From: an uncultured Alphaproteobacteria bacterium
GTDB taxonomy: Bacteria; Pseudomonadota; Alphaproteobacteria; UBA3830
Assembly: GCA_944390775.1 (NCBI GenBank)
Contig: CALXQQ010000022.1
Location: forward strand, 1 to 38,757
Direction of reading: 5' to 3'
DNA length: 38,757 nucleotides
Shown: one piece after another, positions 3,784-38,757 of the stretch
Layout: each line of letters starts with the position of its first letter
Position numbering within the stretch: the first letter of the stretch is position 1
Notes under the pieces: generated by a model
Database searches by the model: none
Told to the model about the DNA's origin: nothing
What the model saw: the letters and a program-made list of their open reading frames with translations, nothing else
Program-made: the position numbers and the translations under genes

Positions 3784-6700
3784 TCACTCTTTCTCCGTTT
3801 CTTTTACGTTTTGAACTCCAACAATATTCCTTATGTCCAGAATGTCATACTGTCCAAGCGAATATTTATCTTCCAAAATAACTTTTTCAGGGAAATATAA
3901 CACTATCGTATATAAACCGCCCCTTCTGAAGTCTTTCTCCAATCTACCAAATTTTTCTAGCTCCTCTTCGGTAGAAATAATCACGCTTAACACTTTTTCC
4001 TTGGGAGGAGATGGTCGCTGCGGAACAAAATCCGCCGAATAACTGTACACATTAACGTTGTTCATGACCCTCACGTTTTTAGGATCAAATTCTGTTACTC
4101 TGTCCGTGTTTAACCTCACATTATCTTCACTTTTATAGCTCGATATGTTAAGCAAAACTATTTTTCCTACCTCAAGTAAATCGCGATAGCTTTCTAAGGC
4201 CTCCGCAAATAACGATACCTCTGCCGTGCCAGATAAATCAGATACAGATAAAATGCAAAATTTGCGCTGACTTCTGCTGCTTTTAATCGCCATATCATTT
4301 ATTATCACAAGCACTTGAGATCTGTCTGTCTCGCGAGCTTCTTGTAAATTGGAATAGCCCATCTTCTGACGAAATTCTTCGTACTGTTCCAAAGGATGCG
4401 CAGATAAATAAAAACCTATCGCGCTGAATTCGTGTTGCAATTTTTCAAGTTCCGGCCATTCATCACATTGCACCAATTCCGGATGACGCGTTTCAAATAA
4501 AAATTCTTGTGACATGTCTTGTTGACGCAAAGCAAGAATCTTGTCCAACGACATAAATAATTGATGCCGATTCGGATGCAATTTATCAAATACACCCGCC
4601 TTAATAAAATGCTCTAATAAACGTCGATTAAATACTTTCGTGGATGAAAGACGCTCAGCAAAATCAAATATTGAGAGAAATGGCCCTCTTGCCGTGCGTT
4701 CCTCTACAATGGTTTCAATCGCCGCTACACCACTCCCCTTTATTGCCGACAGACTGTAGATAATAGCTCCGCTGTCCTCGTCAATCGCAAATTCCGCGTA
4801 AGAAGAATTGATATCTGGCGGAAGAACCGTTAGCCCGTTGCGTTTCGCATCCTGAAAAAACACATATAACTTGTCTGTGTGAGTCATGTTCAGACTCATA
4901 ATCGCAGCCATGTACTCCACAGGATAATTCGCCTTAAGATAGGCCGTTTGATAAGTGATAATACCGTATGATGTCGCGTGTGATTTGTTAAATCCATAGC
5001 TGGCAAACTTGCTCATTTGATCGAACAATGTTTTTGCTACCGATTCTTTAACTCCATTAGCAACAGCTCCATCGATGAAAATTTTGCATTGAGCCTCCAT
5101 CTCCTCATGGTTCTTTTTTCCCATGGCTCGACGCAAAATATCTGCTTGTCCCAATGAATAGCTACTGATCACCTGCGCAATCTCCATGACCTGTTCCTGA
5201 TAGACCATGACACCATAGGTTTCAGATAAAATCGGCTCCAACTTCTCATGCAAATATGTGATTTTTTCATGGCCATGCTTGCAAGCAATATATCGAGGAA
5301 TATCTGCCATAGGTCCGGGCCTATACAAGGCAATTAACGCCATAATATCTTCTAGCCGATCCGGTTGCATTTTATGTAATACATCCTTCATCCCAGCACT
5401 TTCCATCTGGAATATGCCGACACAATTTAATGCCTTAAACAGCTCAAATGTTTTTTGGTCGTCTACAGGAATATCCTGCGTTGTTAAATTAATATTGTAT
5501 CTGCTATTGATAAGATCCAGCGCTTTCTGAATAACTGTTAAGGTGGTCAACCCTAAAAAGTCAAATTTTATCAAACCTGCTGATTCTATATATTTCATAG
5601 AAAATTGTGTAACAGGCATTGTGGATCTATCATCCTTATACATTGGAACTATGTCTCGCAAGTCCTTATCGGAGATAACCACACCTGCAGCATGTACTCC
5701 CGTCTGTCGATATAACCCTTCCAGATTCATGGCTATATCCATCAGCTTTTTGACTTGAGGATCATTGAATATTGCTTGCTGTAGCTCAGGCTCAGAATCA
5801 ATTGCCTCTTTCAAACTAATAGGATTCGTTGGTGTAAACGGTATAAGTTTCGCTAATTTATCAACAAAACCATAAGGCAAAGCAAGCACTCGACCAACAT
5901 CGCGCACAACCATCTTCGCCTGCAATTTACCAAAAGTTATAATCTGAGATACAGAATAATAACCATACTTGTTCTGCACATAGTTAATCACTTTATCTCG
6001 ATTAGTCTGGCAAAAATCGATATCAAAATCTGGCATGGATACACGATCAGGATTAAGAAATCGTTCGAATAGCAAACTGAAACGAATAGGATCAACCTCC
6101 GTAATATCAATAGCCCAAGCCGTAATTGATCCCGCACCAGATCCACGCCCAGGCCCTACCGGAACACCATTGTTTTTGGCCCAACGAACATAATCAGCAA
6201 CTATCAAGAAATATCCGCTGAATCCCATTTTTTGAATAACACCAAGCTCATATGTGAGTCTTGCGAAATATCGTTCTTTTATTTCGTTGAAGTCATTCTG
6301 ACTTCTGAAATGCTGCAACTTTTTCTCCAGACCGCTAGTTGCAAGATCAGATAATTCTTGATCTTGTGTTTTACCATCCTGAGTCTCGTAAATAGGCATT
6401 ATTGGTTTTATAAAACGCAAACCAAAAGCACATCTTTGCGCCAAATATTCCGTATTTTGAATCGCTTCCGGCAAATCTTCAAATAGCGCTATCATTTCTT
6501 CTGGCGATTTGAAATAATATTCTGGCGAAGAAGTAATACGCTCGGTATCGTATACTGTTTTACCTTGCTGAATACACAATAGAGCATCATGTGCTTCAAA
6601 ATCATCCGCCGACGCATAACAAACATTGTTCGTTGCTATTATGGGAAGATCCATATCATAGGCCATAGATAATAATGGCTCTTCCATCTTTTGCTCTTCT

Positions 6701-17520: not shown

Positions 17521-17633
17521 CCACTCACTCCTACTTAAAAATCGCACAAAATCATAAAAAATTCAATATATTTTAACTACTTTTTAGTGAGTTGCTTTTT
17601 ACAATCTCAGACGGGTCAGAAGGATATTTAGTA

Positions 17634-19529
17634 ATGCAATGGCTGAGAAAACATAGCGTAGAAATCTTGTTAATCCTGCTCACAGGGCTAATTGTTAATG
17701 TTTGCACATATCTGATGATGCATGGTTGTGTTATGACATTTAACGATACCGATGATTATATGCGTCTTGTGCGCATGAAAGAATTGTTTCTGACTCGAGA
17801 TTGGAACAACAACGTAATTGCCCGATGCAATTATCCATTAGGAGGTGAATTACACTGGTCTCGTCTGTACGACATGTGTTGGTTTCCTCTAATGTGGCTA
17901 GTTCGAGCTTTCTGTTCGGATCAAGCCCGCGCTTTGGCAATAACAGGTTTCATTATTACTCCGATAATAGGCGCGATTGCTAGCATAGTATTCTTCAAAA
18001 TTATGCATTATATTTTCGAAGAGCGTTCTGCGTTCATTGGAGCCGTACTATTTGCCGCACATCCCATTTTAAGAGCTTCGATAGCATTTGGCCATCCTGA
18101 TTATCACGGATTCATAATATTTGTCATGCTGATGTTTGCTTTAAGCGTGTGCCATATAATCGCGACACGTTTCCAAAGCAGAGAGGCCTATATATTTATG
18201 GGATTTGCCTCTGCTGTTTGTATCTGGACTTCGCCGGAAACGCTTATCCCACTATTAGCTGTTGAGCTAGTTCTAATTGGAGTTGGTTTGGTGAAAAAAG
18301 CACAAATCCTAAACGGACTCTATGCGAAAAATATGATCGCAACCATTTGTATGATCACCCTAATTGCAAATGATATTTCACCAAAACTACTCGCGTTGCT
18401 TATAGCTTTAATGTTGCTGATGCTGCCTTACAGCACATTCTCATTAAAATATCTAAACGATTCCCTGATGAAAAATTGGCACATGGGAATTTTGCTTGTT
18501 ACCGTCTTAGCACTACCTTTGTTAAATCACAACATAGCATATGACAAAATTTCAATAGTGCACGTTGCTCTATATATGTACGGAGCACTTTTCTGTTCTA
18601 TCAGTCGAATATACGAAACTCAATCGCAAAAAACTCGAGTTTTGAGCATGCTTGCCTGGGGTATGTTAATTGCTCTCATTTATATTTCAATGTATCCCAA
18701 GTTTTTATATGGTATGGCTGCAGATATTGATGATTTCATAAAAACAATATGGTTAGATCACGTTTCAGAAATGAAATCACCATATGATTCTGATTTACAT
18801 CTTTTCTTCTATGGATTTGCAGCTTTAAATATCGCGGCAATCTATGCGAAAATATCTGAAATGATGAAATCACCTCTTCATGCAAAAGGTGTTATATGGT
18901 TGTGTTTTATTGCATGCACTATCGTTTACACAATATGCAGCAATTTCTCAGTACGAATGTTGCCATATGCTGTAGTGTTTTCCCTGCCTCTGCTGGTAAA
19001 CATGGGCATGAGCGATTTTACCATGCAAAAATTCAATTCGCTTGTAAGAATTTCAATCACGGCGTTAATCACTGTTTTGTTGCCGATAATCGCATCTGGA
19101 TCCAGTAATGATAACGAAGAAAACGAAAACAAAATTTCTAATAGACTGTATGAGGTCATAGATAATTTAAGTCCTACGCCAGTTGTAATTATGGCACATA
19201 CTAATGATGGTCCAGAGCTACTGTATCGCACGAAACATTGTGTTGTAGGCTGTCCGTATCACAGACAAACTGAAGGAATCGCTCGCTCTTACATCGCGTT
19301 GAATGGAACTTTTGATGAAAAACGCATCACTCACATACTAAAACAGACGCGAACATCTTATATCTTCGTGCGCAAAGCACAATTTACAGCAACGAATAAA
19401 TATTGTCTTGGAAAGATCTTGGCTATGCATACCATCGATCCGCAAAACTATCCTCTTCCTACATGGATAGAATTAGTTAAGTTGCCCGATGATCTGCAAG
19501 ACTTTGTAATTGCTCGCTACAAGCCCTAA
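17634..19529 (+). CDS. GT-C superfamily multi-pass membrane protein (putative glycosyltransferase)
   Basis: The 631-residue protein has about a dozen hydrophobic segments and a C-terminal soluble domain (from about residue 500). After the first membrane segment it has the acidic stretch FNDTDDYMRLVRMKEL, followed by YPLGGELHWSRLYD. The next loops contain HPILRASIAFGHPDYHGF. This layout of early paired acidic residues, HWSR, and an H-x-D/Y-H loop matches a family of uncharacterised alphaproteobacterial proteins related to STT3/PMT-type lipid-dependent glycosyltransferases. The donor and acceptor are unknown. The ATG at 17634 was preferred over 17592 because AAGGA lies 9 bases upstream and the first helix then begins normally. 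Its stop overlaps that of the convergent glycosylase gene. Confidence 0.65.
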   Translation: MQWLRKHSVEILLILLTGLIVNVCTYLMMHGCVMTFNDTDDYMRLVRMKELFLTRDWNNNVIARCNYPLGGELHWSRLYDMCWFPLMWLVRAFCSDQARALAITGFIITPIIGAIASIVFFKIMHYIFEERSAFIGAVLFAAHPILRASIAFGHPDYHGFIIFVMLMFALSVCHIIATRFQSREAYIFMGFASAVCIWTSPETLIPLLAVELVLIGVGLVKKAQILNGLYAKNMIATICMITLIANDISPKLLALLIALMLLMLPYSTFSLKYLNDSLMKNWHMGILLVTVLALPLLNHNIAYDKISIVHVALYMYGALFCSISRIYETQSQKTRVLSMLAWGMLIALIYISMYPKFLYGMAADIDDFIKTIWLDHVSEMKSPYDSDLHLFFYGFAALNIAAIYAKISEMMKSPLHAKGVIWLCFIACTIVYTICSNFSVRMLPYAVVFSLPLLVNMGMSDFTMQKFNSLVRISITALITVLLPIIASGSSNDNEENENKISNRLYEVIDNLSPTPVVIMAHTNDGPELLYRTKHCVVGCPYHRQTEGIARSYIALNGTFDEKRITHILKQTRTSYIFVRKAQFTATNKYCLGKILAMHTIDPQNYPLPTWIELVKLPDDLQDFVIARYKP

Positions 19530-23594: not shown

Positions 23595-23824
23595 CTGTTT
23601 TTTTGTGGCAAAAACAGAAAAACTCAACACAAATGCTCAAAAATATCATTCATATGGTGTGTTAAAAAAGTATTACCCCCTGTGTTTTCAGTGGTTGTAT
23701 TAGCAATTGTTGCAAAAAAACCACACAACACAAAAATATTTATTTAACCCTTCCTTAACCTTTATTTTGTTGCCAGATACCAATCTATATGGTAAATGAA
23801 AATGCAAAATTTAGGAGAATGTCA

Positions 23825-25126
23825 ATGAGAAACCTCTTTCTGAAAATTTCAGTAGTTACTCTGGCTGCACTAGCCAATAACTCTTTCGCAGAAAACTCAG
23901 ATCTGTTGCTTCATGAATATATCGAAAAACAATTGCAAGATATATGTATACTAAGCAAATTCTCATTCGATGGCCAAATAGAAATTACAGCCGCTCATTG
24001 TAAACAAGCTAACCCTGAAACCTTGGACACAATGTTTATTTCCTCTCAAGGCCATATAGATTTCACATACAGCGATCTCTGTGATTATGGCCGATTCGGC
24101 GCAACTATGGTCTGCCGTACACGTTCGGGATTAATAAAAAAGAGCGGAGCAATCGTAGAACAGGGATTCATTTTCTTGGAAACTGGATCATATGGACTGT
24201 TTAAAGTCGGTTATACAAAAACAGCCGGTAGCGCTTTCTCAATCAGCGGCGAAGATTGTATGACCGGATATACAGGATTCGGTAGCGGTTTCCTAAACTC
24301 ATATTACAATACATCTTCTGGTTCCATTATAGATTCTGGTTTTAAATATGATGACGGATCTTCAGCAAAAATCGTATGGCTATCACCAGTAGTCAGAGGC
24401 TTTTCTGCCGGACTGTCTTTCACTTTTAATGGAATGTACCAAAACCCCTTCCATAGCAGTACTTTGAAAAAAGATCGAGATTTTTCCGCTAAAAGAAGCT
24501 TCGAAACACGAACCGATTACCAAAAACACGTGTTTACCGGAGGTGTAGCATATGAATACGGTGCTCCAGATAGCTTCAGCGGAAAAATCGCTGTGGCTGG
24601 ATGGGCAGGAAAAACAGCTTCTAAATTGGGCGATGAAAAAATACGTAATGTCCGCGGATATAATATAGGCTTGTCTCTGCAATATCAGGAGTTCTTAGCC
24701 GCATTTAGCTTTACCGATATGACCCATTCGTTTTTAGCAAATCAATACGCCAATAGCGATTCGCCAATATTCCAAAATGGTGTCGCTTACGATATCTCAG
24801 ACGAAGGAGTAGGCCTAAAACCCGGAGCAGATGCCGGAAAAGTATACACAGTCGGATTAGCATACAACAACGGTCGCTGGCATACATCAATTGGATACCT
24901 CTATTCCGCAACAAAAATGTCTCATAACGAAAAAGCAACAGGTAAAGTACTCTCTTGCGCCGTAGAATATCGCTTTGATAAAACTTGGAGCGCTTACTGC
25001 GAATATATCAATATAGTAACACGTACGTGCGATCGCGCAATGACTTATGACGTCGCTGTAGACGGAAAAGCTTTCTGCAATAACAGAGCTAACTTGTTTA
25101 TGATTGGATCAAAAATAAAATTATAA
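23825..25126 (+). CDS. Porin-like outer-membrane protein
   Basis: The 433-residue protein has a signal peptide (MRNLFLKISVVTLAALANNSFA, cleavage before ENSD). A short helical segment follows, and then a long series of amphipathic beta strands resembling alphaproteobacterial general porins (FLETGSYGLFKVGYTKTAG, GFSAGLSFTFNG, YNIGLSLQYQEFLAAFSF, AGKVYTVGLAYNNGRWHTSIGYLYS, CAVEYRFDKTWSAYCEY). It ends in FMIGSKIKL rather than the usual terminal Phe. The start at 23825 was chosen because AGGAG lies 7 bases before it. The longer frame from 23789 would add twelve polar residues before the signal peptide. Eleven Cys are unusual for a porin. A bidirectional terminator follows. Confidence 0.75.
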   Translation: MRNLFLKISVVTLAALANNSFAENSDLLLHEYIEKQLQDICILSKFSFDGQIEITAAHCKQANPETLDTMFISSQGHIDFTYSDLCDYGRFGATMVCRTRSGLIKKSGAIVEQGFIFLETGSYGLFKVGYTKTAGSAFSISGEDCMTGYTGFGSGFLNSYYNTSSGSIIDSGFKYDDGSSAKIVWLSPVVRGFSAGLSFTFNGMYQNPFHSSTLKKDRDFSAKRSFETRTDYQKHVFTGGVAYEYGAPDSFSGKIAVAGWAGKTASKLGDEKIRNVRGYNIGLSLQYQEFLAAFSFTDMTHSFLANQYANSDSPIFQNGVAYDISDEGVGLKPGADAGKVYTVGLAYNNGRWHTSIGYLYSATKMSHNEKATGKVLSCAVEYRFDKTWSAYCEYINIVTRTCDRAMTYDVAVDGKAFCNNRANLFMIGSKIKL

Positions 25127-25163
25127 AAAAAAGAGGCGTGATTCTACGCCTCCCGTTTTTTTA
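25125..25163. terminator. Bidirectional terminator between the porin and symporter genes
   Basis: GAGGCGT (25133-25139) and ACGCCTC (25146-25152) form a perfect 7-base-pair stem with a 6-base loop. T7 follows on the plus side, and A8 before the stem gives a T tract on the minus strand. It serves both convergent genes. Confidence 0.9.
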
Positions 25164-26477
25164 TCGATCTTCTTTCCAAATATATAACGCAATTGCGGTA
25201 ATCGCTGATGAAATAATAAATAATATAGCAGGAGATGTTACACAGCCCGTAGTGTGTATCAATTTTGGCGCTAACATTAACGCACCTCCCCCAAAAACAG
25301 CCATCGCTATATTATGCGCTATCGATACCCCAAGTAGCCTTACCGATGTGGGAAATATCGAACAAATTGTCGCTGGAATCGGACCATAGTATATCGCAAA
25401 TAACACGATTATCCCAATCTCTGCCATTATCACAGATAGAAAATCTCCACTCTGCATTATGTTGAAAAAAGGCCATACAAACGCTATTAAAAATATACTG
25501 GCCGTAATCATTTGCGCCCGTTTCCCAAACCTATCAGCACACCATCCGCCAACCAAAATCATTATAGCTAAAAATGGCATGCAAATGTTCTGAATTAAAC
25601 AGGATGTATTGTGACTAATATGTAGAAATTCCTCAAAATACGATACTAAAAATGTCGCAATCAAAAAATATCCACTCGCAGTAAGAGCATCTATGCAAAC
25701 AACTAGAAAAACACCCTTCCAATGATTCGAAAATAAATTCATAAGAGATTGTGTCATGTTCATTTGCGGCGCCGTATTCGCCTGCTTCTGATGCTCCAAA
25801 AATTCCTTGGGATCCTCAAGTCGATGCTTAACATAGTTTGCAATCGCTGTGCCAAAAACACTCAAAATAAACGGTATCCGCCAACCAAAAGATTCTAGTT
25901 GCTGTGCATTACATACAGAATTCACACACGTCGCAACACACGCACCCATGATAAATCCACTAACTAAACTAAATGGAGCCCACGATGAATAGGTCGCTTT
26001 GCGCTTCCGACTCGCGTGTTCGTACAAAAATACAATGGTTCCGCCAAATCCTCCTCCTAATGCTAAACCTTGTATGAACCTTATCAGGATTAACAAAACT
26101 CCCGCTGTCATCCCCATCTGCTCATACGTAGGAAGTACCCCCATGAGAGTAGTTGGTATCGCCATCATGTAAATCGAAATAACTAACGCTTTCTTGCGAC
26201 CAAGAATATCTCCAATGTATCCAAAAACAGCCGCTCCAATCGGTCGCGCTAATAACCCCGACGCAAACGTCCCTAAAGAAGCAACTAATTGTAAGTATGT
26301 GTCTCCACTCGGAAAAAATAACTTTCCTATGATCGTTGCAAAATAACTATAAACCGCAAAGTCATACCATTCTAACGCGCTTCCCGCAACGCACGATATT
26401 ATAACTTTCTTCATTCTTTGAAATTCATCCCTCGACGAAATCTCTTCAGGCTCTGCAGTAGCAATATCTGTCGACAT
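25161..26477 (-). CDS. MFS metabolite:H+ symporter, ProP-like
   Basis: This 438-residue, 12-helix major facilitator belongs to the MHS family. It has the characteristic ALEWYDFAVYSY (helix 1), GYIGDILGRKKAL (the MFS loop 2-3 motif), RFIQGLALGGGFGG and ADRFGKR (loop 8-9). ProP-like carriers import osmolytes, dicarboxylates or other small metabolites and are expanded in rickettsia-like intracellular bacteria. The substrate here cannot be read from sequence. The start at 26477 has GGAG 6 bases upstream; the longer frame would start at a GTG inside that site. The gene is divergent from the cyclodipeptide-synthase kinase gene, and their promoters overlap. Transport of the cyclic dipeptide is a possibility, not a demonstrated role. 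Confidence 0.88.
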   Translation of the reverse strand: MSTDIATAEPEEISSRDEFQRMKKVIISCVAGSALEWYDFAVYSYFATIIGKLFFPSGDTYLQLVASLGTFASGLLARPIGAAVFGYIGDILGRKKALVISIYMMAIPTTLMGVLPTYEQMGMTAGVLLILIRFIQGLALGGGFGGTIVFLYEHASRKRKATYSSWAPFSLVSGFIMGACVATCVNSVCNAQQLESFGWRIPFILSVFGTAIANYVKHRLEDPKEFLEHQKQANTAPQMNMTQSLMNLFSNHWKGVFLVVCIDALTASGYFLIATFLVSYFEEFLHISHNTSCLIQNICMPFLAIMILVGGWCADRFGKRAQMITASIFLIAFVWPFFNIMQSGDFLSVIMAEIGIIVLFAIYYGPIPATICSIFPTSVRLLGVSIAHNIAMAVFGGGALMLAPKLIHTTGCVTSPAILFIISSAITAIALYIWKEDR

Positions 26478-26503
26478 ACATTTCTCCACAAAATATAGAG
26501 AAG

Positions 26504-26624: not shown

Positions 26625-26653
26625 CGAAATTGTGAGTTGTGTGGAGGTGTGTC

Positions 26654-28879
26654 ATGAAGTCTAGTGGTATTATGATTCCCAAAAGTCAGGAGTTTATTAA
26701 TTCTGAATCTATGAAGATTTTCATAAGATCTGAACATGTGCTAATTGGAATTAGTCCGTTTAATAGCTATTTCAGCGATAAACGTATGACTCTAATATTT
26801 TCTTGGGCTTTCAAACATTTCAACAATGTCAATCTATTCATTCCTGATAAAATTTCCGCTTATACATTGCAAGCAGTTGGATATGACGAAAAAAAAGCAC
26901 AACAGAAAACCAAACGCCAGGATAGATATTTGCGCCATAAGGCTGTGCGAGCTCTAATGAGTCTGGGATTCAGCGAAAAAGAGTCTGATGCAAAAATTAT
27001 ATACCTAAGCGATGTTTTAAATAACCAAAATTATATAGAAGCCTATAAACTGTGCGTAGAGCGTTACGAAAATGATAACGAGTTCTATGAAAACTGTCTT
27101 TCTACATCTAAATGGGTTTTGGATGGAAAAGTAAAAAATGATAATCCGATAACTGAAGAATCTCTTCGGATTGCATCAAAATATTTCTTGGCAGAATTAC
27201 CACTGTATATCAATACTCCAGGAATTTTGGGAGTAAAAGAGTCTCTGTTTGTTTATAAGGATACTCCAGAATTTTTACGCCGTATCTATGCAGATAAATC
27301 TCTCATGTATCCCGGACAAGGATATGCTTCTGTGTATTTTGAAGGAGAAACTGACGAAGAACAACATAAATCAAAATCAGATAATCCACAAGTTGTGCTG
27401 GATAGCATAATGGAACATGCTGCTTGCTGCATATATTGGAAAAATCGAGAAGGCGTCTATATGGGATGTAACTCGATGGAAGCAGAAATTCTTGGTTTTC
27501 AATCTCCTGATGAAGTTATTGGAAAAACCGATTTCGATTTGTCTTGGAAAAAAATCTCTTCAATTCTTAGGGAAAGTGATCAGAGAGTTATGAAGACTGG
27601 TAAGCCTGAGCAGATAATGGAATATCCAATACTTGCAAATGGAAAACAAGCAATTATGCTAACAACTAAAGCTCCTCTGTACGATAATAACAAAAAAATC
27701 GTCGGAATTGTCGGAACTTCTATTGATGTTACAGATAGCTATAGAGTAAATGATCTCGCCAGAGAATACGAAAGACAACAACTTGATCTTCAACAACATA
27801 GACAATTCAAGAAAATGATCTATCAAATATCACATGATTTACTATCCCCTCTCGTGAGTTTGAAATATTTTGAAAAATCATGTGAAGAAGTCTCAAGCGA
27901 AAACATGAATATACTTCGAACTGCGATTGATTCAATAGATGGAATACTGAAAGCAATGTTAGATCATTATAGAAATGATAATTTCAGCGAATCCGGCACA
28001 ATGAAACAAAATATCCTCGTGTCTCCAGCAATCTCGGAAATAGTAACTCAAAAACAAGCAGAATATTCTCATAAACATTTTGTTCAAGGTGAAGATAAAC
28101 ATGGAAATTTCGCTGTTATTACATATACACCTTCTCCGGACTGTTATGATCTATGCATAGAGTGTGATCTGTACAGTTTTAAGCGAATGTTATCAAACTT
28201 GATAAATAACGCAGTAGAATCCGTAGATAACAAAATAGCTGAAGTAAATATAAAACTGTATAAAGAAAATAAACAAGTCAGAATAGATGTTTGTGATAAT
28301 GGTCGAGGAATTCCTCCTGTAATAGCTGGTCAGATTATGCAGAAAGAAAAAGATGCTTCTGTCACAACGAAAATTGGAGGATATGGTCTTGGAATATCTC
28401 AAATTCAAAATACTGTCGAACAGTATAATGGTAGAATTAATATAAATTCACAAGCTCAATCAGGTACTGTATTTTCTGTTATTTTTCCGGCATGTAGTAT
28501 TCCTAATTGGATTACAAGCAAATTGTTTTTTAGAAAAAATAGTGTCGTTATTGTGGTATGCGCGGAAGATTATGTTCAAAAGATTCTAAAAGATTCGATA
28601 GGACACCCATCAATAAAATTAAAATTTATACCAACCATCTCTCAAGCGGAAGATTTTATAAAAAACTTCAATAAAACTAGCTCGTTTTATATATTAATAG
28701 ACTATGATGGTAGAGGACAAGACGATCGCGTATCATTCATCTTAGAAAACAAAAAACAAACTATCATTATTTCAAAACATTATATGGATAAAGCTATGCA
28801 TATGTTTGCTAAACAACATGGTGTTAAAGTGTTACCAAAACAAATCCTATCATATGTATTGGTGAAAATTACAGATTAA
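26654..28879 (+). CDS. Cyclodipeptide synthase fused to a PAS-histidine kinase-receiver protein
   Basis: One 741-residue polypeptide carries four modules. Residues 24-230 are a tRNA-dependent cyclodipeptide synthase: HVLIGISPFNSYFS with the acyl-accepting Ser34 (AlbC Ser37), a basic helix (about 79-100) for tRNA binding, YFLAELP with Tyr177 and Glu181 (AlbC Tyr178, Glu182), and Tyr201 (AlbC Tyr202). Asn37 matches the NYQ subfamily, but Lys202 follows the Tyr. Residues 245-365 are a PAS domain. Residues 385-615 are the kinase core: phospho-acceptor His394 in SHDLLSPL, N-box NLINNAVE, DNGRGIP and GYGLGI. Residues 630-740 are a divergent receiver with Asp683, Ser707 and Lys729. GGAGG lies 6 bases before the ATG at 26654. 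No membrane segments are visible, so the protein should be cytosolic. Known CDPSs make cyclic dipeptides from two aminoacyl-tRNAs; signalling by the fusion is inference. Confidence 0.92.
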   Translation: MKSSGIMIPKSQEFINSESMKIFIRSEHVLIGISPFNSYFSDKRMTLIFSWAFKHFNNVNLFIPDKISAYTLQAVGYDEKKAQQKTKRQDRYLRHKAVRALMSLGFSEKESDAKIIYLSDVLNNQNYIEAYKLCVERYENDNEFYENCLSTSKWVLDGKVKNDNPITEESLRIASKYFLAELPLYINTPGILGVKESLFVYKDTPEFLRRIYADKSLMYPGQGYASVYFEGETDEEQHKSKSDNPQVVLDSIMEHAACCIYWKNREGVYMGCNSMEAEILGFQSPDEVIGKTDFDLSWKKISSILRESDQRVMKTGKPEQIMEYPILANGKQAIMLTTKAPLYDNNKKIVGIVGTSIDVTDSYRVNDLAREYERQQLDLQQHRQFKKMIYQISHDLLSPLVSLKYFEKSCEEVSSENMNILRTAIDSIDGILKAMLDHYRNDNFSESGTMKQNILVSPAISEIVTQKQAEYSHKHFVQGEDKHGNFAVITYTPSPDCYDLCIECDLYSFKRMLSNLINNAVESVDNKIAEVNIKLYKENKQVRIDVCDNGRGIPPVIAGQIMQKEKDASVTTKIGGYGLGISQIQNTVEQYNGRININSQAQSGTVFSVIFPACSIPNWITSKLFFRKNSVVIVVCAEDYVQKILKDSIGHPSIKLKFIPTISQAEDFIKNFNKTSSFYILIDYDGRGQDDRVSFILENKKQTIIISKHYMDKAMHMFAKQHGVKVLPKQILSYVLVKITD

Positions 28880-34696: not shown

Positions 34697-34757
34697 AAAA
34701 CAACTTTCATTATATTTCAGATAGTTACCATAAGTATATGAAATAGGCAAGATTTCT

Positions 34758-34880
34758 TTAGGGGAATTTATTTTCGCTCAAGAGATATTCTTTTGAATGT
34801 GCGATTTTTGCAGAAATTGATATGAATTCTATAGAAATGAAATGATGAGCCTTAAAATTATACAGATGAAGATGCTTCAT
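34758..34880 (-). CDS. Possible small protein or leader peptide upstream of addB
   Basis: A 40-codon frame (MKHLHLYNFK to SENKFP) starts at an ATG (34880-34878) preceded at 8 bases by a strong AAGGAG (34894-34889). It ends 61 bases before addB. AGGAG can pair with CTCCT next to the start codon around a three-base loop, so the ribosome site may be masked. No similarity is recognised. It could be a leader, a real small gene, or a remnant at the edge of the decayed region. Confidence 0.3.
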   Translation of the reverse strand: MKHLHLYNFKAHHFISIEFISISAKIAHSKEYLLSENKFP

Positions 34881-35279
34881 AGGAGTTTCTCCTTTTAAGA
34901 GTGCATGTGGCGGTATTAATTGTATTTAGTGATGCATTTCTCCAATGCTGTTCGCATTTATCCGATTAAATTGAGCTAAGATGTCGCACTAGCGTACAAA
35001 TATTCTCGTGTATGATTTTATTGCTTTCTCAACGCTACCAAATGCCATCTACTTGTATCGGTTTGTTTTGATATTGTACTACAGAAAAAATTCTTGCAGT
35101 AATGTTATAGTATCTAAATTACGCATATAGCTATAAATTTGCTAAAACAAAAATTTTACGGTTCTAACTCTGAAAACGCTTAAAGCTTTAGCTCTATTCC
35201 TCCAATCTATATCTTATTACATTCCTTCAATTTCATGTGCAGCTTTGCTCTCATATACGATATATGTTTGATGGTTTTT

Positions 35280-35520
35280 TCTAAGATATCAAACACTTAA
35301 TCGTTAAATAAATGGAGCTTTCTCTTATCCAAAAATTGAGAGAGTGTTGCAAGATAGTCGTACTTTTCGCTTTGCCATATGTCGGATTTTCTCTCCGAAC
35401 CTTAAAAACTTTGTCTAAGTTCTGCATTGCCACATTGCTGTCGAGGAATGCTTGGTGACTTGCGACGATATATAATTTCGCTATCTAAGCATTTTAAAAT
35501 ATTGCGCTTTCTACAGAATA
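35280..35520 (-). pseudogene. Relic of an IS481/IS3-like transposase
   Basis: On the minus strand one frame reads ...FLDSNVAMQNLDKVFKVRRENPTYGKAKSTTILQ... around 35340-35450. The segment resembles the linker of integrase-type transposases just before their catalytic core (V/L-R-x-E-N-P-T-Y-G-K-x-K-I-x-x-I-L). Stops and frame changes occur on both sides, and no catalytic triad is readable. Limits are approximate. Confidence 0.4.
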
Positions 35521-35865
35521 TTACATGAAAAATACCGAAACGCAATAATAAATCTCAGATCAAAACACGATCATTTTTTACAAATTTTTTTCTGAAGGCG
35601 TAGTCGTATAATTTATAAAATTGCTATGGAAAAAATAAAGTCTATGTCTAGCATTCTTTGATTAACCATTTGAGGTGATACCTTCTATTAAAATTATGCC
35701 TCTCATTTCGCTCCTTTTACTTCATTTGTTTTCTTTCTTACTGAACTTTGATAAACTGCAGGTGTGCAGATGTCAGATTGTTTAACAATTATGGAGAAAA
35801 TATAGTCTTTGTTGAGCAACGGTGTTGTTGCTTAGGCATCACTATGGAGGGGTGAGGCAGATTGA

Positions 35866-36230
35866 TGATCAAAAGTCTTGAAAATGAGATTTGGTTGTAA
35901 TGTCTGCTACAACAGCAGCATCAACTTTTTGAGCATTTATTTTGATTGGCATTATGTGAATATTTGTCAAGCTATTTAAAGGTTTGAGAGATTATTGGTA
36001 TGAGTAGTAACCCATTAAAAATGATGGTAAATTATTCTTAATAAGGTTTACAAATTTTGATCGATGCTGCGGAGATGTAAATTCTGCGATTTCCAAAAAA
36101 TCAGCAGAAATGTTAATACAAAAAAGAAAAAACATATACAGCAAGCAGAGTTTATAACAATTCTAAAAGGGGAATCCTTGGTTTTTTAAAATATATATCA
36201 GACATATTTATTATTTTGCAAGCAGAAAAA
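35866..36230 (+). pseudogene. Decayed IS5-type transposase (copy D, divergent)
   Basis: Broken plus-strand frames match the transposase of the right-end elements. S-L-x-N-E-I corresponds to T-L-A-D-G-I, NICQAI-stop-RFERLL to NICRHIQRLEPML, and ILIDAAEM-stop-ILRFPKNQQK to ILIDSTEIQIQRPKKNQRQ. Many stops and frameshifts are present. It is more diverged than copies A-C and is probably a related but distinct element. Confidence 0.6.
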
Positions 36231-36870
36231 CAAAAATTTCCAAAAACACTACAGTTTTACTTGCTGTTCGCTTGGATTACCATACAATCATGTATAACAT
36301 TCATCTCTTTTGTAAATATATAAACGATATCCGTTTCGCAATGTGGTTATTGTTTTTGTTTGCTTTCTTTTAGGTGGAAGATGGCATATACTATGTGGTT
36401 GCTTGTCTGTAGGTATTCTGCTTTTCTGGATATCATCTTTGAGATTATTTCAAATTGTAGGATGATTGGTATTTGCTTTAAATGAATTGTGTCGACATAT
36501 TTTATGGTAAAATTGGGTAACATGTTGATATATATATTGGTTATTCAGAAGGTCTAGTTTGTTGAGTTTGTGTATTGCGTATAAAATATGTTACAAGCAA
36601 AGAATGTAATTGATAGACAAGCTAAAGAGTAAAAGTAAATGTTTTGTTGAGAGGTATCTTGATAAACGCGATGAGTATTGAGCTTAATGAAATGATAAAA
36701 TAGGCAAATGTTGATAGGGAGAAGACTATCTGTTTTGTCTGTATTTTTTTTTGTGCTAATCAAACTTGGTGAGATGTGCTTGAAAGAAAGATTTGTCTTG
36801 GGAGATAGGGGCGTCACTATTTGTGGTTATAGTGTTTTTCTAATTTTGATGGTATATATTTTACATTTGT

Positions 36871-36886
36871 TGTTTCACGTGAAACA
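36871..36886. promoter_or_regulatory. parS centromere-like site
   Basis: The 16-base palindrome TGTTTCACGTGAAACA is an exact match to the widely conserved parS consensus bound by ParB. It lies in non-coding, decayed DNA. parS sites cluster around the chromosomal origin in most bacteria. Confidence 0.85.
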
Positions 36887-37028
36887 GGTTAAGAGATATT
36901 CATATGTTGGCAAAAGTGCTCAGGCTCGTTATATGTAGAGTAGGGTGTGAGAAGATAGTTTGTTTGGGGTGTTAATTTTGTTGTATTAACTTTAGTGTTT
37001 GTTAAATATATGTGGAAAATAGTAAACT

Positions 37029-37730
37029 TATTGCGAAAGAAGTGAGAAGATAGCAAAATTTCGATAAATTGTGTAATAAAAGTAAAGTTTTTTATAAGGT
37101 TGACAGATGTAACGTTGGAGTAATTTCACGAAATTGTTATCAAAGTGAGACTGCAATAGGAAAAGTTTCAAAAGAAAAAGGAAGTTTTTTAGGAGGGGCT
37201 TCCAAGATAAAAACCTTGGAAAATGAGATTTTATTATTTCTATTTTTTATCGATTTTATGAAAGTTTTCATTTTTTTTTGAGGAGAGCTGTTTGACCTCG
37301 ATGACTAAAACATTTGTCGATACATTCAATGTCTCGAACAGATGCTGGCAAATATCATAAAGATCATCAAAAACATATGGTTAAGTTATTATGATCTTGA
37401 GGTAATTTTGGCAAATGTTATGGATTTTTAGGTTCAGAGACCTAAGAAAAATCAGAAGAAATTTTAATAAGAAAAGAGAAAATATATAATAAATATTTTG
37501 AATTTATGACGATTTAATTGGCAAAATCTAAACATTTCAAATGCTATAGTAGCAGAACACATGATTTTAAAATTCGAAAAATGTCATATCATAAACTGTA
37601 TCCAACAACGCTTTTGCTGTACAAACGACGACGAAAAGTCTCTCTTTCGTCTGAATGAATCTCTTACTATCACGCCCTTGTATCGAAACAAATGATCGTT
37701 GAACATGCATTCTCTTAACTCAATAAACAT
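37029..37730 (+). pseudogene. Decayed IS5-type element, copy C
   Basis: Left end TTGCGAAAG...TAGCAAA (about 37031-37056) is followed by a degenerate transposase. Fragments LCNKSKVFYKVDRC and SKIKTLENEILL, and DNA matches to copy A through the first catalytic Asp region, the THDFKI segment and VEHV-F, are all visible but broken by stops and indels. The start-codon region is deleted (about 45 bases relative to copy B). Homology breaks off at about 37730, exactly where the inverted-repeat end of copy A begins. Confidence 0.8.
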
Positions 37731-38363
37731 CTTGCGAAAGTCTATGGTTAGCAAACACGAACAGCGATTGGTCTATGCGGTTAATTGTTATGAAAACCGC
37801 AAGTTATAAATTCCGGTGATTACATTGAACCTCATGTGCAGTTTTTTGCGGAAATTTCGGTAGATAGAGCCCAAAATTTTGAATTTTTTGAGATGGGAAA
37901 ATACATGTTCGACACTTACTCGTTTCGATGCAAGTGTGTGATTATGCTCCTTTTGTTCCGCTGTTAAAGGACTTTTTCGCCGTCGTTTGTGCGGCAGAAG
38001 CGTTTTCGGATGCTGTTTTTGCAAACCCTGATATCCAGAATCTGCCAGAACTTGAACATCTTTCGGGATATGATCGGACATTTTTCGAATTTTAAAATCA
38101 TGTGTTCGACCACTATAACATTTTGAAATATTTAGGATTTTTCCATTTGTATTGGTCATGATTTCGAATTTCATCATATGACGTTTCTTCTTCCCAGAAT
38201 AAAATTGTCTCTGATTTTTCTTGGGCCTCTGAATCTGAATTTCCGTTGAGTCTATCAAAATCCTCTCAAGATCAGACTGGCTCAACTCTCTGTTTTTGCT
38301 GATCTTAATAACATCTGCCAGCATCGGTTCGAGGCGTTGAATGTGTCGACAAATATTAAACCT
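37731..38363 (-). pseudogene. IS5-type transposase, copy A, 5'-truncated, interrupts copy C
   Basis: The coding part runs from about 38360 to the stop at 37788 on the minus strand. It gives the complete C-terminal two-thirds of a DDE_Tnp_4-type transposase. The three catalytic residues lie in ILIDSTEI, LADSGYQG and SVEHVFSHLK. The element end TTGCGAAAGT...TAGCAAA at 37732-37754 is oriented inward. The N-terminal part is missing. At 38364 the sequence changes abruptly to the left end of copy B in opposite orientation. The open frame upstream of about 38360 is antisense to copy B and is not transposase. Confidence 0.85.
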
Positions 38364-38757
38364 CTTGCGAAAGTAGAGAGGGGATAGCAAAAGAGTGAGA
38401 AAAGTGCGAAACTCAACAAAAAATAAATAAAAATGATGAGTTTCGATAAATTGTGTAATCAAAGTAAGTTTTTTGCAAAGTTGACGGGGATAAAGTTGGA
38501 GCAATTTTACGAAATTGTTCGCAAAGTGCATCCGCAATGGGAAAAATTTCAGAAGAAAAAGAAGGTTTCAGGTAGGCCCTCCAAGATAAAAACCTTGGCG
38601 GACGGGATTTTGTTGGTATCGATTTACTATCGATTTTATGTGAGCTTTCAATTTTTGGGGATGCTGTTTGACCTCGATGAATCAAACATTTGTCGACACA
38701 TTCAACGCCTCGAACCGATGCTGGCAGATGTCATTAAGATCAGCAAAAACAGAGAGT
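38364..38757 (+). mobile_element. IS5-type insertion sequence, copy B, left end (runs off window)
   Basis: The left end CTTGCGAAAGT...GATAGCAAA (38364-38391) is followed by a transposase frame starting at ATG 38433 or 38436. It stays open to the window edge (107 codons or more). It encodes an HTH_Tnp_4-like N-terminus (MSFDKLCNQSKFF, GRPSKIKTLADGILL, FLGMLFDLDESNICRHIQRL). The last 70 bases are almost identical to the same part of copy A, in inverted orientation, so the copies are recent relatives. This copy looks intact as far as visible. Confidence 0.85.

Follow-up and report, generated by a model that had tools for sequence, protein, structure and literature searches.

What would a cyclodipeptide synthase (CDPS) do at the head of a sensor histidine kinase? 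CDPSs are usually treated as secondary-metabolite enzymes, and cyclic dipeptides as bacterial signals have often been proposed and rarely proven. The question is raised by a gene in the window, by which we mean the whole 38,757-nucleotide stretch of DNA analysed here (contig CALXQQ010000022.1 of an uncultured alphaproteobacterium), in which an earlier note had read a CDPS and a sensor kinase in one open frame.

That reading is borne out by the domain matches. The frame runs uninterrupted from either GTG 26639 or ATG 26654 through the stop ending at 28879; the ATG, already taken as the start in the earlier note, is the better one because of the GGAGG that precedes it by 6 nt, and the protein is thus most likely 741 aa long (Table 1). 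Counted from the GTG, the protein matches the Pfam profiles of CDPS (PF16715) at aa 22-232 (9.6e-58), PAS_4 at aa 259-369 (1.1e-14) and HATPase_c at aa 513-618 (2.5e-17), and these lie in order along the chain with a His box before the last. The PF16715 match, which the earlier note had proposed as a check, scores 195.9 bits against a cut-off of 27 and covers positions 8-218 of the 220 in the profile; TIGR04539 scores 212 bits against a cut-off of 45 on the same part. The N, G1 and G2 boxes of the HATPase_c domain are found at aa 518, 548 and 575. By sequence, the closest solved structures are CDPSs, first the cyclo(Leu-Leu) synthase 6ez3 (1.7e-27), and for the C-terminal half histidine kinases; the kinase part also matches many kinases of the window's family. 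A single-sequence AlphaFold2 model of the CDPS domain reached a pLDDT of only 39.7.

Table 1. Features of the fusion gene and its divergent neighbour, in window coordinates.
Feature	Position	Strand	Remarks
CDPS-PAS-HisKA-HATPase-receiver fusion gene	26654..28879	+	741 aa from ATG 26654; alternative start GTG 26639
Shine-Dalgarno GGAGG	26643..26647	+	6 nt before ATG 26654, read directly
Cyclodipeptide synthase domain, aa 17-227	26702..27334	+	catalytic S34/N37/Y177/E181/Y201; K202 replaces AlbC H203
CDPS-PAS linker	27335..27412	+	gene boundary of relatives falls here (junction sequences)
PAS_4 domain, aa 254-364	27413..27745	+	Pfam
HisKA-like region	27812..27964	+	His394 in SHDLLSPL, His codon at 27833; sub-threshold here, significant in homologues
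HATPase_c, aa 508-613	28175..28492	+	N box NNAVESV, G1 DNGRGIP, G2 GGYGLGI
Receiver-like tail, diverged	28526..28876	+	D683 aligns with homologues' phospho-acceptor Asp; own Pfam match absent
MFS transporter, divergent, neighbour only	25161..26489	-	membership of system putative

The two remaining parts named in the earlier note, a HisKA-like region and a receiver-like tail, stand in their key residues (in the tail E638/D639, D683, S707 and K729 are kept), but in the window protein they miss the Pfam thresholds that homologues reach. HisKA has an E-value of 0.1 here, below threshold, and 1.1e-6 in homologue L025, and the tail has no Pfam match here, with receiver matches of 1.1e-7 and 1.1e-9 in L037 and L013. 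No transmembrane segment is seen in the protein (maximum Kyte-Doolittle-19 of 1.1), so that the PAS domain is predicted to be cytosolic.

Could two genes have been joined by chance, by an error of annotation or assembly, or by a sequencing error, as the earlier note had considered? The window does come from a draft genome, with 50 contigs, a size of 1.01 Mb and a completeness of 97.9%. Set against this are the uninterrupted frame and the recurrence of the arrangement. Among 50 genomes of the window's order, bona fide CDPS genes occur in three. Two of these, G000 and G061 (contig 2), carry CDPS-kinase fusions with different linkers, and G061 belongs to another genus of the window's family. Its fused copy is a CDPS-PAS-kinase of 711 aa preceded by a SemiSWEET-like gene, and on its contig 92 a separate CDPS is followed by a PAS-kinase-receiver protein; close paralogues within this genome thus differ in whether they are fused. 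In G018, the row of genes reads SemiSWEET-like, stand-alone CDPS, PAS kinase. A further order of the class contributes three genomes (G069, G457 and G458) with four CDPS genes, two of them in G458, each directly upstream of a PAS kinase. As a result, all eight bona fide CDPSs found in the two orders are either fused to a PAS kinase or encoded directly upstream of one. The arrangement also reaches a second class: on the Legionella lytica plasmid pLlyPCM2298_1, the CDPS WP_252582640.1 overlaps by 14 bp the gene of the kinase WP_252582639.1, which is built as PAS-HisKA-HATPase-REC-Hpt. Among 398 sampled genomes of the phylum, a CDPS was seen only in the window's own genome. The small size of that genome, together with how the lpx genes are arranged in a relative, suggests an alphaproteobacterium whose genome is reduced.

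Because the fusion recurs, and because four further genomes and a complete, named plasmid record show this gene order with the genes unfused, an artefact or a chance fusion is very improbable; contamination or assembly error was considered and rejected on this recurrence. The search for the same domain order in other genomes, suggested earlier, supports a broader claim than the original: two genomes fuse the pair, and where it is not fused its members persist as conserved neighbours. One of the G458 CDPS genes (L085:4323-5092) is split by an in-frame stop, with an intact PAS kinase following at 5136-6308.

A kinase neighbour is no general property of CDPS genes, as other neighbours are found elsewhere. 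Of six loci with CDPS-like genes elsewhere in the class, at least four have an XRE-type regulator next to the gene. XYP-type CDPS-like proteins of about 200-280 aa are encoded directly after an XRE-type HTH gene (protein about 215 aa) at L040:765-2154, L041:1171-2644, L042:791-2163 and L044:834-2058, which makes a second regulator pairing, spread across several families of the class. On three Streptomyces plasmids (L111:2995-5915, L112:2995-5915 and L113:2959-5879), a CDPS is flanked by divergent MerR/ArsR metal regulators on one side and a heavy-metal P-type ATPase on the other, which suggests a metal-linked cyclodipeptide.

Tailoring enzymes were not seen beside the window gene or at the loci of its relatives. 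Since fusion or adjacency is repeated without such enzymes, synthase and sensor are almost certainly coupled in function; the domain order and the conserved fusion or adjacency can be read directly from the sequences. The most likely form of this coupling is that the ligand of the PAS domain is the CDPS product. Our best explanation, to which we give a probability of about 0.5, is an enzyme-sensor module in one chain, in which the CDPS would make a cyclodipeptide that is read by the PAS domain. The N-terminal CDPS would take two aminoacyl-tRNAs and form a cyclic dipeptide, the activity and the identity of the product being predicted from the domain. The dipeptide, either accumulated in the cell or returning from outside, may bind the cytosolic PAS domain and thereby set the activity of the histidine kinase, in a direction of signalling that runs presumably from enzyme to sensor. 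From there phosphate could travel, by way of the receiver-like tail, to a response regulator not linked to the gene. Possible partners for phosphotransfer exist, as eight receiver-domain matches lie elsewhere in the window genome, none of them linked to the fusion gene. Synthase and receptor are thus linked physically or by gene order, with the kinase as the putative receptor of the product. Counting against this explanation, among other points, are a receiver tail that Pfam shows as degenerate in the window protein and the silence of conserved adjacency on which part controls the other.

The active site bears on whether a product is released at all. Residues S34, N37, Y177, E181 and Y201 of the window protein align with S37, N40, Y178, E182 and Y202 of AlbC, and the catalytic Ser34, Tyr177, Glu181 and Tyr201 given in the earlier note are correct to the residue. 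What it had overlooked is that the residue after Tyr201 is Lys, neither His nor Pro. Two types of CDPS, NYH and XYP, are distinguished by the residues at AlbC positions 40/202/203 (PMC5935735). With N-Y-K at these positions, the window protein is a CDPS and yet can be filed in neither subfamily. Lys203 is found in all eight alphaproteobacterial-type kinase-linked copies and gives a new signature, N-Y-K, as compared with NYH or XYP; the L. lytica copy is canonical NYH, and the tree of CDPS copies leaves unsettled whether the NYK copies form one clade. Judged by alignment, the catalytic set of the window CDPS is intact except for this signature. Since H203A impairs AlbC (PMC5935735), Lys at that position is a point against the enzyme-sensor reading. 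In the fused G061 copy (L038:10708-12843), Cys replaces the cyclisation Tyr202, and the separate copy of the same genome keeps Tyr.

It is here that a serious rival, though a less likely one, has to be weighed. In this alternative, the second of the two models in the earlier note, the protein is a sensor of charged tRNA: occupancy of the CDPS by an aminoacyl- or dipeptidyl-Ser, rather than a released product, would report amino-acid supply to the kinase. CDPSs bind aminoacyl-tRNA, and small genomes suggest dependence on the amino acids of a host. His203 is absent from all eight alphaproteobacterial-type copies. Moreover, AlbC Y202F accumulates dipeptidyl-enzyme (PMC5935735), and the Cys at this position in the fused G061 copy suggests that product release may fail in at least one of the fused copies. 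On the other hand, seven of the eight alphaproteobacterial-type copies, and the L. lytica copy as well, retain Tyr202, and a diffusible product fits better with what is seen at most CDPS loci, where synthase and kinase are separate proteins.

The surrounding genes also argue against charged-tRNA sensing, as SemiSWEET genes accompany many of the loci. PQ-loop proteins transport sugars or amino acids. Of 27 strong SemiSWEET/PQ-loop matches in the order, 16 lie at most 350 bp upstream, on the same strand, of a CDPS gene or of a gene with one of two other N-terminal domains, types A and B (described below), and ten of these are within 20 bp. With about two targets per genome and roughly 1000 genes, we estimate the chance expectation for such adjacency at well under one. 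Because a SemiSWEET-type gene stands beside many relatives and the cyclisation Tyr is kept in all but one copy, we lean towards a released product. In the enzyme-sensor reading, a SemiSWEET-type facilitator of this kind could let the product cross the membrane, and the module would then serve in quorum sensing or in sensing of a host compartment. It counts against this explanation that a SemiSWEET gene is not found beside the window gene, the best match in the window genome being weak (7e-4).

The window gene has among its neighbours MFS, AddA/AddB-like, DnaK and DnaJ genes, and scans for promoters and terminators gave results at chance level. The window also holds two large open frames (17592-19529 and 23789-25126; 645 and 445 aa) with no Pfam match at 1e-4. 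A further tract of about 3 kb (34751-37787), next to a DDE transposase gene (37788-38537), has no open frame of 100 aa and no Rfam match and looks like decayed sequence. At L098:2244-2960, only 13 bp separate a SemiSWEET-like gene from a stand-alone receiver fragment behind it, which resembles the tail of these kinases and is perhaps a remnant of the module.

Most related kinases in the window's family have no PF16715 match and carry instead one of the two N-terminal domains mentioned above, of about 240-290 aa; type A or type B is found on 35 kinases of the family. A set of CDPS-like proteins (set X), three of which score above the PF16715 cut-off, served as an intermediate for comparison. 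In hhalign, type A scores 93.9% and type B 96.8% against set X, and set X scores 98.6% against true CDPSs; controls give at most 5% with column-shuffled profiles and below 1% with reversed ones. Direct matches to bona fide CDPSs are weak (13.5% for type A and 0.2% for type B), so that membership of both types in the CDPS superfamily, reached via set X, is likely and not proven. At the catalytic positions, type B has Ser in 24 of 24 domains, the second Glu in 23 of 24 and Tyr-Pro in 24 of 24, which is the XYP pattern, and type A keeps Ser and Tyr-x-x-Glu-Glu. The constant Tyr-Pro of type B is a further point against charged-tRNA sensing. Type B is present in 25 of 50 genomes of the order, a scan that served as positive control for the class-wide one; the latter found no type B outside the family, a weak negative since no genome sampled there is known to carry type B. 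The kinase tree requires several swaps of N-terminal type, with weak deep forks and a long branch for the window protein.

Exchange of type A, type B and CDPS domains among related kinases would fit a kinase able to drive several different enzymes, and this leads to a second alternative, in which control runs in reverse. The kinase and receiver would regulate the CDPS, and phosphorylation would tune its output of a cyclodipeptide aimed at the host or at competitors, and the PAS domain would sense the redox state, a metabolite or the like. PAS_4 domains have many ligands, and the fused protein has its receiver tail at the C-terminus. Where the genes are separate, however, control would need a hypothetical contact through which the kinase reaches the enzyme in trans, and no tailoring or biosynthetic genes for a finished effector lie nearby. 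We regard reverse control as improbable, more so than the sensing of charged tRNA.

Taken together, the CDPS-kinase arrangement points to an undescribed signalling system, with either a self-made chemical signal or a readout of charged tRNA. Published surveys of CDPS fusions name methyltransferase, P450 and ABC-transporter partners and no kinase. In the parts of the open-licence literature covered by a full-text search, there is no report of a CDPS-histidine kinase or CDPS-PAS fusion or pair, which supports the earlier impression that no such fusion had been described. More broadly, and tentatively, there could be an undescribed class of two-component systems, in which a tRNA-dependent peptide-bond enzyme of the CDPS superfamily would form the input of a PAS kinase. 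It would comprise at least three types (CDPS-NYK, type A and type B), be coupled to SemiSWEET in one order, and range across bacteria with small genomes and Legionella. A part in sensing the interior of a host is suggested by the likely setting, namely bacteria with genomes of 1 Mb and a Legionella associated with amoebae. If the enzyme-sensor reading is true, cyclic dipeptides gain a dedicated synthase joined in one chain to a candidate receptor, and the question of whether they are signals becomes directly testable; the alternative would provide a case of charged tRNA feeding a signalling protein. A true class of this kind would link the substrates of translation directly to cell-cell or host signalling.

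Several known systems resemble the one in the window. In CqsA/CqsS and LqsA/LqsS, the synthase of a small-molecule autoinducer likewise adjoins a sensor kinase; the window synthase differs in being tRNA-dependent and unrelated, its kinase is soluble and has a PAS domain, and both may be in one chain. The SLC5/STAC sensor kinases (CbrA, CrbS) are similar in that a kinase is fused to a domain handling a small molecule, which is a transporter there and a tRNA-dependent synthase here. The stand-alone NYH CDPSs (AlbC, YvmC and BtCDPS 6ztu) and the S. haemolyticus cyclo(Leu-Leu) synthase 6ez3 are 30-35% identical to the window CDPS domain and share its profile match and the equivalents of Ser37, Tyr178, Glu182 and Tyr202. 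Unlike these enzymes, the window system has Lys at 203 and a fused or paired PAS kinase, with no tailoring enzymes nearby. A further likeness is p1_BGC1 on a plasmid of L. lytica PCM 2298 (PMC11828895), where the CDPS gene overlaps the start of a PAS-HisKA-HATPase-REC-Hpt kinase gene; it differs from the window in its separate genes and canonical NYH signature, and passages of that paper list a CDPS gene cluster and leave the kinase unmentioned. Finally, known fusions join a CDPS to a P450, methyltransferase or ABC-transporter domain (PMC5816076), and in these, as in the window protein, the CDPS is N-terminal and its partner C-terminal. Their partners are tailoring or export domains, whereas the partner in the window protein is a signal-transduction kinase.
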